From assembly GCF_002923755.1 (NCBI RefSeq), contig NZ_PGFZ01000006.1, forward strand, positions 118,956-182,955: DNA of 64,000 nucleotides. The letters are read 5' to 3'. Position numbers and translations under genes: made by a program. This DNA comes from Methylovulum psychrotolerans. GTDB taxonomy: Bacteria > Pseudomonadota > Gammaproteobacteria > Methylococcales > Methylomonadaceae. Below are positions 36,406-52,890 of the stretch, piece after piece (position 1 is the stretch's first letter; each line of letters opens with the position of its first letter). The notes beneath the pieces were generated by a model. It made no database searches. It saw only the letters and a program-made list of their open reading frames with translations, and was not told the origin of the DNA.

Positions 36406-37352
36406 CCAAAAAATATCCGGGGCATGAAGCCCGCCAGACGCTGCGGACAGAAGCCGAAAGGCTGGTGGTCAGCTTATCGCCGGAAGCACTGATCGCCCAA
36501 CCTAACGAAATCCTGCTGCATGAACTGTTAGTCCATAAAATCGAACTGGAAATGCAAAATGAAGAGTTACGCAGGGCCCATACCGCCCTTGAAGAAGCCC
36601 GCGACCATTTTGTCGACCTTTATGAGTTTGCCCCGGTCGGCTATATCACTATTACCCGCGACGGCCTGATGAGTGAAATCAATCTGACCGGAGCTGATTT
36701 GTTAAAAGTTGACCGCACAAAATTGCTGATGCGGCGGTTTTCGCAGTTTGTCGCCGCCCCTGACAAAGACCGCTGGTACCGCCTGTTTTTGAGCCTGATG
36801 ACCACCGCCCCCGCAGACAAACAGGCATTTGACCTGCAAATGCTCCATCCCGATGGTACGGTGTTCTATGCCCATCTCGATTGCCTGCGCCACAACCCCG
36901 CCAATGCCGAGCCAACCTTACGCGTCAACCTAACCGACATCAGTAAAAGCAAGCAAATCGAGCAAGAGTTGCGAATTGCCGCAACGGCTTTTGAATCGCA
37001 AGAAGGCATTTGGGTCACTGATACGGACTGGGTGATTTTAAAAGTGAACCTAGCCTTCACCCACATTACCGGTTTTAGCGCTGCCGAAGCCTTGGGCCAA
37101 ACCCCTAACCTATTGCGGTCAGAGCGGCACGATCAGGGCTTTTATGCCGCCTTGTGGCATACCGTCAACACCACGGGGGCTTGGCAAGGCGAAATATGGA
37201 ACCGGCGCAAAAACGGTGAGGATTATCCGGCCTGGACCAGCATCACGGCGGTATACGGCGACGATGGCGCAGTCATCTATTATGTCGGTATGCAAAGTGA
37301 CATAAGCCAACAAAAAACCGCCGCCGCCCCTATTGAACAGGGGCTTTCCTGA
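36402..37352 (+). CDS. double-PAS protein, output domain absent
   Basis: A 316-residue protein: N-terminal helical region (LLHELLVHKIELEMQNEELRR) typical of proteins that follow CheB-CheR fusions, PAS 1 (about 65-185; LYEFAPVGYITITRDG) and PAS-PAC 2 (about 195-308; GIWVTDTDWVILKVN, ITGFSAAEALGQTPNLL, EIWNRRKNGEDYPAW). It stops right after PAS 2 without kinase, GGDEF or EAL domain, so it may have lost an output domain or work by binding the overlapping CheB-CheR product. The last third of the gene is duplicated at 43437-43796. Confidence 0.85.
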   Translation: MTKKYPGHEARQTLRTEAERLVVSLSPEALIAQPNEILLHELLVHKIELEMQNEELRRAHTALEEARDHFVDLYEFAPVGYITITRDGLMSEINLTGADLLKVDRTKLLMRRFSQFVAAPDKDRWYRLFLSLMTTAPADKQAFDLQMLHPDGTVFYAHLDCLRHNPANAEPTLRVNLTDISKSKQIEQELRIAATAFESQEGIWVTDTDWVILKVNLAFTHITGFSAAEALGQTPNLLRSERHDQGFYAALWHTVNTTGAWQGEIWNRRKNGEDYPAWTSITAVYGDDGAVIYYVGMQSDISQQKTAAAPIEQGLS

Positions 37353-37397
37353 CAGCCAAAGGCAAACCAAAAAGTGTAACAACTTGTTACACTTTTT
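36993..37397 (+). repeat. 405-base direct duplication, left copy
   Basis: Runs from within PAS 2 of the double-PAS gene through its stop to the end of the palindrome. It matches 43437-43841 base for base in length with no gaps and, by my count, about 17 mismatches, most of them in the first half. The two copies bracket the Rhs island in direct orientation. Confidence 0.92.
37369..37397. terminator. 29-base perfect palindrome, copy A
   Basis: Arms AAAAAGTGTAACAA and TTGTTACACTTTTT around a central C. As RNA it is an A-tailed, T-tailed hairpin suitable as a bidirectional terminator between the PAS gene (+) and the Rhs-island genes (-). Two further identical copies are at 43813-43841 and 49058-49086, the third beside parAB, so a protein-binding role is also possible. 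Confidence 0.85.
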
Positions 37398-43373: not shown

Positions 43374-43796
43374 GTGAGCAGAAAGAAGCGCAGATCAAAA
43401 GTCAGTCGTTATCCTGTGTTGATTCAGATGAAAATGGAATCGCAAGAAGGCATTTGGGTCACCGACACCGACTGGGTGATTTTTAAAGTGAACCAAGCCT
43501 TCACCCATATTACGGGTTTTAGCACCGCCGAAGCACTGGGCCAAACTCCTAACCTATTGCGGTCAGAGCGGCACGATCAGGGCTTTTATGCCGCCTTATG
43601 GCATAACGTCAACACCACGGGGGCTTGGCAAGGCGAAATATGGAACCGGCGCAAAAACGGTGAGGATTATCCGGCCTGGACCAGCATCACGGCGGTATAT
43701 GGTGACGATGGCGCAGTCATCTATTATGTCGGTATGCAAAGTGACATAAGCCAACAAAAAACCGCCGCCGCCCCTATTGAACAGGGGCTTTCCTGA
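43374..43796 (+). pseudogene. duplicated PAS-PAC fragment
   Basis: From 43437 on, the sequence is the same as the final 120 residues of the double-PAS protein at 36402-37352 (GIWVTDTDWVIFKVN, EIWNRRKNGEDYPAW) and keeps the same stop. It has lost PAS 1 and the helical N-terminus. The open frame reaches back to GTG 43374 but the first 22 residues (basic, SRKKRRSK) are unrelated, so this is a truncated duplicate. It could still yield a 140-residue single-PAS protein, because the frame has stayed open. Confidence 0.75.
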
Positions 43797-43841
43797 CAGC
43801 CAAAGGCAAACTAAAAAGTGTAACAACTTGTTACACTTTTT
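43437..43841 (+). repeat. 405-base direct duplication, right copy
   Basis: Right partner of 36993-37397, of the same length, ending at the identical palindrome. Together the copies delimit the Rhs island at 37398-43436. Confidence 0.92.
43813..43841. terminator. 29-base perfect palindrome, copy B
   Basis: Identical to copy A (37369-37397) and copy C (49058-49086), arms AAAAAGTGTAACAA/TTGTTACACTTTTT. It ends the right copy of the duplication. After it, 43842-44184 holds no recognisable gene. Confidence 0.85.
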
Positions 43842-49057: not shown

Positions 49058-49086
49058 AAAAAGTGTAACAACTTGTTACACTTTTT
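49058..49086. other. 29-base perfect palindrome, copy C, possible parS-like or terminator site
   Basis: The third identical copy of the palindrome with arms AAAAAGTGTAACAA and TTGTTACACTTTTT, 19 bases downstream of the parB stop. Six bases or so upstream are also shared with copies A and B (AGCCAAAG). A long perfect palindrome next to parAB suits a centromere-like ParB site, but the flanking T-runs also make it a good terminator between two convergent genes. The canonical chromosomal parS sequence is not present. Confidence 0.6.
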
Positions 49087-49104
49087 TAGGCCCGCTGCCC
49101 CCAG

Positions 49105-50010
49105 TTACAACGCCGTATCTGCCAACATCTGTTCTATAAAGTCTTTTAGGCGTTTTTCTTGCACTTCGTCGAGCAGTTTGGCGCTGAGTTTAATGGTAAA
49201 ATGATGGTTGGTCGAAGAAATATTGCCGACTTTTTTGCCGTCCCGAAAAAAATACTGCGCCATCTGCACATCGGTATCGATGTTGTTCGCTACCTCTTTT
49301 ATTTTTCTTTTGATAAAATCGGCCAATTTGGTTTGGTCGAGTTCCTTAGCCACCAATAAATCCCACGCCTCGGCACTCACTTGGTCAAGATACGGCGAAT
49401 CCTTATGGTCTTTCAAGACTTTTTTCAGGTCGTTGGCGGCGGAGCGGGACAGTAATCTGGGGTTGGCCTCCAAATCGGCCAAGATAAAATCCGGCAACTC
49501 ATTAAAGGCAAAATAGCGGTACATGTCTTCCCTGACCAAGCCTAGGGATTCGGCGAGTTTCTTTTTAGTCGGAAACAAGCCTTCAATTTGGCGTATGGCC
49601 AGGCTGATTTCATAATCGCTTAAATCTTCCCTATCGACATTTTCGGCCAAGGCAAACACCGCCATATCGCTGTCCGAGATATTGGTGACGATCGCTTCGA
49701 CCGTATTTTTATGCAGCAGCTTATGCGCCCGCCAGCGCCGCTCGCCTGCCGCTATCTGATAGCCATCGCCCGCTTTACGCAATAAAATCGGCTCCAATAG
49801 GCCAATCTCCGCGATGGACGCGGCGAGCTTGTCCAATTCGTCCTGAGGAAATACCTTGCGCGGCTGGTAAGGGTTGGCCTCAATGCTGTCAACCGGCACC
49901 AAACGGTATTCCCTGCCTTCGGCAAACTCCACCTCTTGGCCGGAAGCGGTATGGCGCAGGTTATTTTGCTGTAGCTTGGATTGCAGCATACCTTTTAAGT
50001 CTTTTTTCAT
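49105..50010 (-). CDS. parB: ParB-family partition protein, plasmid-type
   Basis: A 301-residue ParB/RepB-like protein: N-terminal ParB/Srx domain (VDSIEANPYQPRKVFPQDEL, then the GERRWRA box; about 35-125), a helix-turn-helix middle (PTKKKLAESLGLVREDMYRYFAFNEL; about 145-185), and a C-terminal region with KRKIKEVANN and a hydrophobic end (LSAKLLDEVQEKRLKDFIEQML) for dimerisation. The NYQPRK motif matches the ParB box I variant. It overlaps parA (ATGA). The CTP-binding motif GERRWRA suggests a functional CTPase-type clamp. Confidence 0.9.
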   Translation of the reverse strand: MKKDLKGMLQSKLQQNNLRHTASGQEVEFAEGREYRLVPVDSIEANPYQPRKVFPQDELDKLAASIAEIGLLEPILLRKAGDGYQIAAGERRWRAHKLLHKNTVEAIVTNISDSDMAVFALAENVDREDLSDYEISLAIRQIEGLFPTKKKLAESLGLVREDMYRYFAFNELPDFILADLEANPRLLSRSAANDLKKVLKDHKDSPYLDQVSAEAWDLLVAKELDQTKLADFIKRKIKEVANNIDTDVQMAQYFFRDGKKVGNISSTNHHFTIKLSAKLLDEVQEKRLKDFIEQMLADTAL

Positions 50011-50816
50011 AAAGGCTCATCTCCCACCGTAAGTTGCAGGCGTTCAACCAATAATTCCGCCAACCTTTTATATTCCCTAGCCACCTTCGATGTCCTGTCC
50101 AACTCGCGCAAACTCATTTGCGCAATCGCCGATTGGTTGACTTTGGTGCTGGTGGGGATTTTAATGTCGATCAATTTACCGATCTGCTCCCGCGCCGCGC
50201 CCTCAATTAATTTACAGACGGTTTGCCTTTCATCATGACGGACTAATAAAGCGCCAATCAATTCTAAGGCCGGATTAATGCGGCGGATTTTTTCAACCAA
50301 CCTCAGCAAATCGGTAACGCCGTACATGCCGTATTGCGAACCGGATTCGATAGGGATAATCAAATGGCTGGCCGCCGCAAGGGCATTGCTGGTCAACAGT
50401 TTCAAACTGGGCGGGCAATCGATTAAGATCACGTCATAAATGCCTTGCAAAGGCCGTATCTTATCGCGCAATTCCTCCGAAGGCCTAGGCACGACATCCT
50501 TCAATTCGTCTTCTGTCCTGCCCAACAAGAGTGAGCCATAAATTAACGACACCCCTTCAATATGGGTATCTTCATGGATGGCTAAGGGCAATTTTTCGAT
50601 TTCGGAGAGCAACAGTTCCGCACAGGTCACCGACACTTCGCTGGGATGTTTTTTGCCGATATGCAGGCTGGCGTTGGCTTGGGGGTCAAGGTCAATAACC
50701 AATACGGATAGGCCTAATTTTGCCAATTCCGCCGCAAGGTTAATCACAGTCGTGGTTTTGCCGCAGCCGCCTTTATGGTTGGATACAGCAATGGTTACGG
50801 TTTTTTTAGCTGACAT
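50007..50816 (-). CDS. parA: ParA-family partition ATPase
   Basis: A 269-residue deviant Walker A ATPase: NHKGGCGKTTTVINLA (P-loop with signature Lys), VLVIDLDPQANAS (Walker A'), VILIDCPPSLKLL (Walker B), and later KIPTSTKVNQSAIAQMSL. No DNA-binding N-terminal domain is present, so it is type Ib/chromosomal-like in size. ATG 50816 is chosen because the P-loop starts ten residues later, as in other ParAs. The frame extends upstream to 50912 without conserved sequence. It is read with parB as an operon. Confidence 0.92.
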   Translation of the reverse strand: MSAKKTVTIAVSNHKGGCGKTTTVINLAAELAKLGLSVLVIDLDPQANASLHIGKKHPSEVSVTCAELLLSEIEKLPLAIHEDTHIEGVSLIYGSLLLGRTEDELKDVVPRPSEELRDKIRPLQGIYDVILIDCPPSLKLLTSNALAAASHLIIPIESGSQYGMYGVTDLLRLVEKIRRINPALELIGALLVRHDERQTVCKLIEGAAREQIGKLIDIKIPTSTKVNQSAIAQMSLRELDRTSKVAREYKRLAELLVERLQLTVGDEPL

Positions 50817-51237
50817 GTGTGTACGGTATGAGTAAAATTTGTGTCCATTATAGGTGGGTAGGGATAAAAAAGACAGCCCTTTAAAATGCTGTTGACCGCG
50901 CGGCCGGCACATCTGCCGGGCCTATACCTTGCGCAAGTTGCTTTAAAATATTATTTGGCATACCATGAATAGAGCGGTTTATAGGGCTATCAGGCCTCTT
51001 TTCTGTCCCCTATTTAGTGCCCACACACTAAAAATCAGCGGCGGTGGGTAACGTTTAAGCAGCGGTTATCGCGGTGTACATAGGCAAAACCACAGTCGGT
51101 TTCCGTCAACCCGCCCTATCGGATCACACTGATTATACAAAAACCCATCCCCTCCGTATCCGCGATGCAATAGCCTAACGCTGTCAGCGGCCCTAAGAAA
51201 ATTTTTATCTACATAGACCTGTAATTTGGAGTTTGCA
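50817..51237. promoter_or_regulatory. intergenic region between parA and gpmI
   Basis: Divergent promoters for parAB (leftward) and gpmI (rightward) should be here. I see no gene. TTGGAG at 51226-51231 lies seven bases before ATG 51238 of gpmI as its ribosome-binding site. The segment 51080-51200 has a short ORF on the minus strand that I judge to be spurious. Confidence 0.4.
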
Positions 51238-52890
51238 ATGATTGAGTTGAAAAAAAATGTGGCTTTTACCGGCCCGCAAGGACCTGTGGTATTGGTCATT
51301 ATGGATGGGATGGGGATCGGTAAAAACCCGGCCAGCGATTTTGTCAAACAGGCCAATACGCCGAATTTAGATTGGCTGCATGAAAATGCCTTGTACACAA
51401 AATTGCGGGCGCATGGCGTAGCGGTAGGTTTACCGGATGATGGGGATATGGGCAATTCGGAAGTAGGCCATAATGCCATCGGTTGCGGGCGGATTTTTGA
51501 GCAAGGCGCGGCCTTAATCGGTAAAGCGATTGCCTCCGGTGCGATGTATGCCGACGGTTCGGTATGGCATGAGCTGATTACCCATGTCCATGACCAAGCA
51601 TCAACCTTGCACTTTATCGGCCTGTTGTCGGACGGTAATGTCCATTCCAATATTAACCATCTGGAGTCCATGTTACGCAAGGCGAAAGAGCAGGGCGTTA
51701 AGCGTGCGCGGATACATGCCTTGATTGACGGGCGCGATGTGCCGCCGACTTCGGCATTCGAGTATGTGGAACGCTTCGAAACTTTTTTGGATGCGCTCAA
51801 TGCCGACGGCACAGTCGATTATTGCGTGGCATCGGGTGGCGGGCGCATGAATATCACTATGGACCGTTATGATGCCAATTGGGATATGGTGAAGCGGGGC
51901 TGGGCAACCCATGTCAAAGCCGAAGGCCGGACGTTTGCGTCGATGCAAGAAGCCGTGACAACGTTCCGGGCGGAAATGCCTGGCATTCTCGATCAAGATT
52001 TGCCCGCCTTTGTCATTGAGCGCGACGGCGTAGCGGTAGGGCCGATCGTCGATGGCGACAGCGTCATTTTATTTAACTTTCGCGGTGATCGTGCCTTGGA
52101 AATTACCAAAGCCTTTGAAGCCGATGAGTTAAAGGAATTTGACCGGGGCGGCAAACCCGATGTGATGTATGCGGGCATGATGCAGTATGACGGTGATCTG
52201 GGTGTGCCGGCGCGTTATCTGGTGACACCGCCAGCGATTGACCGCACGATGAGCGAATACCTTTCCAATGCCGGTGTCAAGCAATTGGCCATTTCGGAAA
52301 CGCAAAAATACGGCCACATGACCTACTTCTTCAACGGCAATAATTCGGGTAAATTTGCTACCGAAACGTGGCAAGAAATTCCGTCTGATGTCTGCCCGTT
52401 CGAAGATGCGCCCCGCATGAAAGCCGATGAAATCACCGCTGCGGTGGTAAAGGCGATTGAGGGCGGCGAATACCAATTTATCCGCCTGAATTTCCCGAAC
52501 GGCGACATGGTGGGCCATACAGGTAGGGTGGATGCCGTCAAATTGGCGGTTGAGGCCGTAGATGAAGGGGTCGGCAAGATTATGGCCGCCCTGAAACAAA
52601 CTAACGGCATTATGGTGTGCTCGGCAGATCACGGTAATGCCGACGATATGTGCGAACTGGATAAGAAAACCGGCGCTTTGGTGCTGGATGAACAAGGCAA
52701 CTACAAACCTAAGACCGCGCATTCATTAAACCCGGTGCCGGGTATTGTCTATGACCCATCGGGGCTGGCCAACGCCCGGTTGGCTGACGTGCCCAACGCG
52801 GGTATTGCCAACCTCGCCGCGACCTGCATCACCTTGTTAGGCTTTGAGCCACCCGAAGATTATGCCGCGAGTTTAGTGGCCGTCGGTTAA
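51238..52890 (+). CDS. gpmI: 2,3-bisphosphoglycerate-independent phosphoglycerate mutase
   Basis: A 550-residue alkaline-phosphatase-fold enzyme that interconverts 3- and 2-phosphoglycerate. Metal and catalytic residues: LVIMDGMGIGKNPASDF with the first Asp, GLPDDGDMGNSEVGHNAIG with the nucleophilic Ser, LIDGRDVPPTSA, and the second metal site VCSADHGNADDM. Length is typical. ATG 51238 is chosen with the TTGGAG site, although a TTG at 51226 is in frame. Housekeeping gene of central metabolism; not linked to its neighbours. Confidence 0.96.
   Translation: MIELKKNVAFTGPQGPVVLVIMDGMGIGKNPASDFVKQANTPNLDWLHENALYTKLRAHGVAVGLPDDGDMGNSEVGHNAIGCGRIFEQGAALIGKAIASGAMYADGSVWHELITHVHDQASTLHFIGLLSDGNVHSNINHLESMLRKAKEQGVKRARIHALIDGRDVPPTSAFEYVERFETFLDALNADGTVDYCVASGGGRMNITMDRYDANWDMVKRGWATHVKAEGRTFASMQEAVTTFRAEMPGILDQDLPAFVIERDGVAVGPIVDGDSVILFNFRGDRALEITKAFEADELKEFDRGGKPDVMYAGMMQYDGDLGVPARYLVTPPAIDRTMSEYLSNAGVKQLAISETQKYGHMTYFFNGNNSGKFATETWQEIPSDVCPFEDAPRMKADEITAAVVKAIEGGEYQFIRLNFPNGDMVGHTGRVDAVKLAVEAVDEGVGKIMAALKQTNGIMVCSADHGNADDMCELDKKTGALVLDEQGNYKPKTAHSLNPVPGIVYDPSGLANARLADVPNAGIANLAATCITLLGFEPPEDYAASLVAVG

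Follow-up and report, generated by a model that had tools for sequence, protein, structure and literature searches.

The 29-bp palindrome AAAAAGTGTAACAACTTGTTACACTTTTT, which lies beside the parAB operon of Methylovulum psychrotolerans analysed here, is very probably a parS, the centromere-like sequence on which the plasmid-type ParABS system encoded next to it would act. The stretch analysed (hereafter the window) has a length of 64 kb and corresponds to C56:118956–182955, C56 being one contig of the draft genome. The preliminary description had proposed the palindrome as the cognate ParB site. Judged from sequence, this proposal is strongly supported by the architecture downstream of parB, by the letters of the site, which track the DNA-contacting region of ParB, and by the presence of its 19-bp core before parA in a second Methylococcaceae genome.

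Three identical and perfect copies had been described in the window, and they were recovered exactly at 37369–37397 (parS1), 43813–43841 (parS2) and 49058–49086 (parS3); as palindromes they are given no strand. None was obtained in 100 shuffles, i.e. none is expected by chance. parS3 is indeed adjacent to parB, 18 bp beyond its end (49105). parS1 is at the left border of an Rhs island, 16 bp after a PAS gene, and parS2 is at the right border, in the second copy of the block that contains parS1. The 19-bp core, GTGTAACAANTTGTTACAC, is found five times in the genome (5,189,422 bases, 97 contigs), always on C56 (positions 156329, 162773, 168018, 222821 and 244418, parS1 to parS5), and no sixth copy exists within 3 mismatches in the whole 5.19 Mb. 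All five are the full A5...T5 29-mer; in those at C56:222821 and C56:244418 the strand of the centre base is reversed. The five copies are all intergenic, while intergenic DNA makes up 14.7% of C56 according to a simple ORF call. Two hundred further genomes of the family were sampled, and none has the exact core.

The operon is on the minus strand. parB (49105–50010) matches ParB_N (PF02195, E 2e-26) and encodes, as previously described, a protein of the ParB-CTPase type with the GERRWRA motif, followed by a helix-turn-helix (HTH) with V159-R160-E161 and S190 and by a C-terminal domain. parA (50007–50816, or from a possible longer start at 50912) encodes a Walker-type ParA ATPase (AAA_31, PF13614, E 4e-43; also PF01656), and the two reading frames share 4 bases. 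The predicted structure of ParB (AlphaFold, pLDDT 84.6) has Noc (7nfu) as its best Foldseek match; further matches are ParB/Spo0J (6sdk, 6t1f and 1vz0) and KorB (8qa8/8qa9). The ten closest ParB relatives in the family sample are 59–64% identical and are carried by contigs of 5 to 131 kb, among them the 128-kb plasmid of Methylotuvimicrobium alcaliphilum 20Z. In PLSDB 1,813 records match the window ParB, 287 of them at E 1e-30 or better: 192 of these are from Acinetobacter and the rest mostly from Burkholderiales and Moraxella. Three features of type I ParABS are thus present: a ParA ATPase, a ParB with the ParB_N/CTPase fold and an HTH, and a palindrome beside the operon which is repeated on the same replicon. 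By these testable features the system is a type I ParABS, and it is predicted to work like one through the binding of ParB to the palindrome.

To place the site among homologous operons we scanned 57 ParB-homologue loci, the window being one of them, for [N]TGT-N5-N-N5-ACA[N] with at least 8 of 9 symmetric pairs, from –40 to +300 bp of the parB stop. This threshold was used because a scan for perfect palindromes misses sites with one asymmetric base. Two loci were left out, one with a broken parB (L101) and one with a chromosomal ParB (L102); four (L137 to L140) were taken from the 80 kept out of 593 of a contig search, mostly far relatives outside the clade. L101 (G027:C4:2035–2918) is a second parB, broken in two frames, and an intact parB is found on the same 67-kb contig.

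A palindrome of the GTGT-N5-N-N5-ACAC type follows parB in 38 of the 57 loci, and 19 loci carry one 600–1500 bp before the parB start, i.e. in the region upstream of parA. Either place is occupied in 43 loci. The 14 remaining loci have mostly more distant (35–46%) or truncated ParBs. When the same downstream scan was applied to 124 other ORF ends, more than 3.5 kb from parB, only four were positive, and all four are parS types of those same plasmids. Sites with GTGT outer arms number 73 in 567 kb, against 0–3 for each of nine control tetramers; the tenth, CTGT, which is itself a variant of the motif, gave 24. The window operon has no site upstream of parA (50817–51225), in contrast to the 19 loci just mentioned, and autoregulation through parS may thus have been lost in this operon.

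The outer arms recur, and the inner five bases vary with the ParB clade: AACAA in the window, and elsewhere AGCAA, CGCAA, ATCTA, CCAAT, GGCAA, CTAGA, TCCAT and others. The AGCAA arm is shared by Methylococcales, Chromobacterium, Iodobacter and Acinetobacter. On a ParB tree (44 rows and 21 label states, proteins of 240 residues or fewer being left out) the inner-arm label requires 23 changes; after shuffling the mean is 32 and the minimum 27, and none of 1000 shuffles is as low. The exact 19-mer of the window recurs in L137, a locus of a Methylococcaceae metagenome-assembled genome, 58 bp before the start of parA, with parB next; the ParB of this locus is 53% identical to that of the window.

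The preliminary description had retained a competing reading, a bidirectional terminator, on account of the flanking T-runs; the palindrome would in this case be an intrinsic terminator (a hairpin with a T-run) repeated by happenstance. The local signals agree with it: the RNA fold is stable (–12.3 kcal/mol, z –5.0), T-runs stand on both flanks, copies 1–3 come after gene ends, and copies 1 and 2 are also minus-strand hits of a terminator scan. The reading fails on number and placement. A terminator family, for which dozens of copies always after genes had been named as the sign, should leave many 3'-end copies genome-wide, but there are just five on a single contig, parS5 lies between divergent ORFs and upstream of both, and parS4 is 163 bp beyond a gene end. 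Nor does a terminator fit the 19 loci with a site upstream of parA, or the AAA...TTT flanks, which are present at only 26 of 72 sites. It also leaves unexplained why the inner letters vary with the HTH residues of ParB, as detailed below. Copy number, placement and co-variation together led us to reject the terminator family, and this reading of the palindrome is very unlikely, although a secondary terminator role at copies 1–3 is possible.

Co-variation was measured as the mutual information between each usable ParB column and each inner base (x1 to x5) for 44 ParBs, or fewer where half-sites tied. Base labels were drawn from all half-sites, ties being dropped, and the ranking is raw, i.e. 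it ignores the kinship of the ParBs. Residue 161 ranks first of 263 columns for x1, residue 159 first of 261 for x2 and residue 190 first of 263 for x4. For x5 (38 A, 6 T) columns 188, 154 and 158 rank highest, also in the HTH region, although the ParBs with T at x5 are the more distant ones. At x3 (39 C, 4 A) the highest-ranking columns are outside the HTH region.

In a phmmer alignment to Spo0J (6sdk), V159/R160 line up with the S/R of LGKSR, and S190 lines up with the G in LSMGHGR. According to the available text of PMC7383237, parS contacts in Caulobacter ParB include G170, K171, S172, R173, N178, G201 and R204. By letter pattern V159 would correspond to Caulobacter S172, R160 to R173 and S190 to G201, and E161 would adjoin the R173 equivalent. 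From this alignment and the contacts included in that text, residues 161, 159 and 190 are at or beside known DNA-contact positions of ParB.

AGCAA goes with N159/E161, CGCAA with N159 and Q161 (T161 in one case), and ATCTA with Q159/E161/N190. For AACAA the partners are V159/E161 in the window and G159/E161 in L137, and a hybrid AACAA/AGCAA site in genome G097 accompanies N159. G159 is ambiguous: the arm is AACAA in L137, but ACCAA or AGCTA elsewhere. Several plasmids carry both CGCAA and CTCAA. As read from these sequences, the residue-to-base code is not one-to-one. A prediction rule was fixed before ten further plasmid loci were retrieved. Nine of them have a site, the exception being a locus of Paraburkholderia fungorum, and the rule was correct at 25 of 27 base positions (x1 9/9, x2 8/9, x4 8/9), the x2 prediction allowing two bases ("C or T", from S159) in four of the nine loci. 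Five of the nine are from Acinetobacter, which the training set also contained, so that the result is supportive rather than independent proof.

A role as operator, either of another regulator or as a KorB-like operator through which ParB would control genes, is still less probable. ParB-fold regulators such as KorB do exist, 8qa8/8qa9 are among the structural matches, and the site upstream of parA in some relatives suggests autoregulation; but on C56 three of the five sites come after gene ends and none is before parA. The KorB operator is a 13-bp odd palindrome, TTTAGCSGCTAAA, found at promoters, and its sequence differs from that of the window palindrome in a comparison by eye only.

The borders of the Rhs island carry two copies of a 405-bp block, both on the plus strand and 95.8% identical: the left one (36993–37397) includes parS1 together with the 3' end of the PAS gene, the right one (43437–43841) a fragment of the PAS gene and parS2. 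The earlier suggestion that the palindrome was carried to the borders by duplication thus holds for copies 1 and 2. That the five copies are a dispersed repeat from duplication or transposition, without function of their own, has this shared block in its favour but is the least probable reading and was rejected on copy number, placement and co-variation. The flanks of copies 3–5 look unrelated beyond the 29 bp (nothing in common within 60 bases on either side), and homologous operons have diverged palindromes at a conserved position. The right end of the palindrome is precisely where the duplication stops, which gives the impression that the palindrome marks the junction.

C56 measures 306,074 bp. 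It encodes two Rep_3 initiators between parS4 and parS5, at 225.2–226.3 and 235.3–236.4 kb (L007:2272–3375 and L007:12298–13419 in coordinates of their own locus, independent of the window), the first being preceded by 21-bp iteron-like repeats. Short direct repeats stand in front of both genes, which are about 10 kb apart; the pair suggests a fused or two-origin replicon. The cumulative GC skew of C56 is V-shaped, with its minimum at 202.7 kb and its detrended maximum at 36.9 kb, about half a circle apart, a pattern found in none of 5000 block permutations. The five sites span 88 kb (156–244 kb) of a contig that is not closed, a wide spread which counts against the parS reading, as a random circular arrangement gives a P of only 0.035. 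Only one doubtful tRNA, a tRNA-Asp, was found on C56, which is weak evidence. It is likely that C56 is a secondary replicon, either a megaplasmid or a chromid, whose origin would be surrounded by the parS sites. If the origin is near the skew minimum, the five sites are all G-centred on the leading strand, possibly by chance with n=5.

Two observations count against a secondary replicon. The ends of C56 do not overlap, and the iPGM gene next to parA, at 51226–52890, is the sole iPGM copy found in the genome, while in a single-contig genome of the same genus iPGM is on the 4.69-Mb chromosome. C56 could possibly be an integrated plasmid. If it is a secondary replicon, as it appears, a core glycolytic gene may be located on it. 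When seven relatives of the genus (11 stretches) were compared in search of an empty site, iPGM matched in each and no parAB flank could be aligned; beyond iPGM, matching pieces appear only further along and in two relatives, G050 (2.3 and 1.0 kb) and G158 (157 bp).

Other ParBs are present in this genome, which has four ParB_N matches and five matches with a ParB protein query. Three are of the plasmid type, on C56, C89 and C18. The best-scoring ParB is on C23 and is presumably the chromosomal one; C23 also carries a cluster of canonical chromosomal parS, TGTTCCACGTGGAACA, at 83.5–84.0 kb. The canonical 16-bp consensus, TGTTNCACGTGNAACA, has no counterpart on C56 within 2 mismatches among the matches listed. 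GTGTN11ACAC gives 39 matches in the genome versus 18 for the reversed control. Twelve sites are perfectly symmetric and belong to three types only: AACAA (five, on C56), CCAAT (four, on C89) and ATCTA (three, on C34). In a further four the symmetry extends to 8 of 9 pairs: an ATCTA/ATCGA site beside the C18 parB, and C1:122421, C5:43632 and C89:2464, which look like chance occurrences or have no explanation. A CCAAT site adjoins the C89 parB, and the asymmetric ATCTA-type site adjoins the C18 parB. The C18 ParB has Q159/E161/N190, the residues paired with ATCTA in seven other ParBs, while the pairings of the window and C89 ParBs are represented by one example each.

The three perfect ATCTA-type palindromes of C34 are grouped within 350 bp (C34:257830–258184, locus L134). 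This contig of 427 kb, of which 400 kb were examined, appears chromosome-like, as it carries two tRNAs and its GC skew rises over most of the length, and these 400 kb contain no ParB or Rep match. As the ParB of the ATCTA type is on the small contig C18, the chromosome may bear parS sites that serve the ParB of another replicon.

Among the closest known systems is the plasmid ParABS of 20Z (NC_016108), whose ParB is 62% identical to the window ParB. The parA-parB order is the same and so is the 19-bp odd-centred architecture after parB, to which a site before parA is added. The arm is CGCAA with N159/Q161, whereas the window has AACAA with V159/E161; in the 75 kb examined out of 128 kb, four sites are found at no more than about 7 kb from parB, compared with five over 88 kb on C56. 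In Chromobacterium violaceum a homologous parAB (53%) of pChV1 is located between repeats of the GTGTAGCAA type. The pChV1 paper (PMC5871888) prints a 19-bp repeat flanking parAB, for which its authors suggested circularisation or recombination, and no mention of parS was found in the available portion of its text. A search of the open-access literature for 14-mers of the AGCAA, CGCAA and AACAA forms gave a match in this paper alone, and no paper naming the 19-bp odd-centred class as parS was found in that literature. The parAB modules of A. baumannii plasmids are described without a parS sequence in the accessible text of PMC7315799.

Canonical chromosomal ParB-parS and Noc-NBS likewise involve a palindrome read by the HTH of a ParB fold, with a specificity set by few residues according to the sections available of PMC7383237. 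Canonical parS is a 16-bp even palindrome, here on C23, whereas the C56 site is a 19-bp odd-centred one. In IncC, 14 parS-like copies are scattered on the plasmid and also used by SGI1, and three probes bound ParB by EMSA (PMC10954446, in its available part). The IncC parS is an even palindrome with core TTTCACATGTGAAA, unlike the odd-centred C56 site, and copies are scattered in both. The Bsr parS of the secondary replicons of Burkholderiales are replicon-specific palindromes with cognate ParB-parS pairs; as given in the text available of PMC5450999 they are 16-bp long with a central CG, as opposed to a 19-bp core with a single central base on C56.

If the palindrome is a parS as we propose, a dimer of ParB would read its two half-sites (GTGTAACAA) with the helix-turn-helix and load there. 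Loaded ParB with CTP would then become a spreading clamp, and the ParA ATPase would move the ParB-parS complex so that each daughter cell gets the replicon. The replicon served would most likely be the ~306-kb C56, as a secondary replicon, with five parS around its apparent origin, two of them in the 405-bp duplication that encloses the Rhs island.

ParB-parS specificity underlies partition-based plasmid incompatibility. It seems rather more probable than otherwise that odd-centred GTGT-N5-N-N5-ACAC palindromes form a large class of plasmid centromeres, in which many types are generated through a ParB code at residues 159, 161 and 190, and that the rare AACAA/V159 type of the window would permit coexistence in one cell with two ParABS of the same class (CCAAT and ATCTA). 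If this is true, the partition specificity of such plasmids would be readable from sequence. Putative ParB-parS pairs that have diversified naturally are found here in plasmids from methanotrophs, Acinetobacter, Moraxella, Chromobacterium and Burkholderiales; they yield a concrete residue-to-base prediction, and a site of this parS type would be a marker for spotting secondary replicons in draft genomes, C56 being an example.
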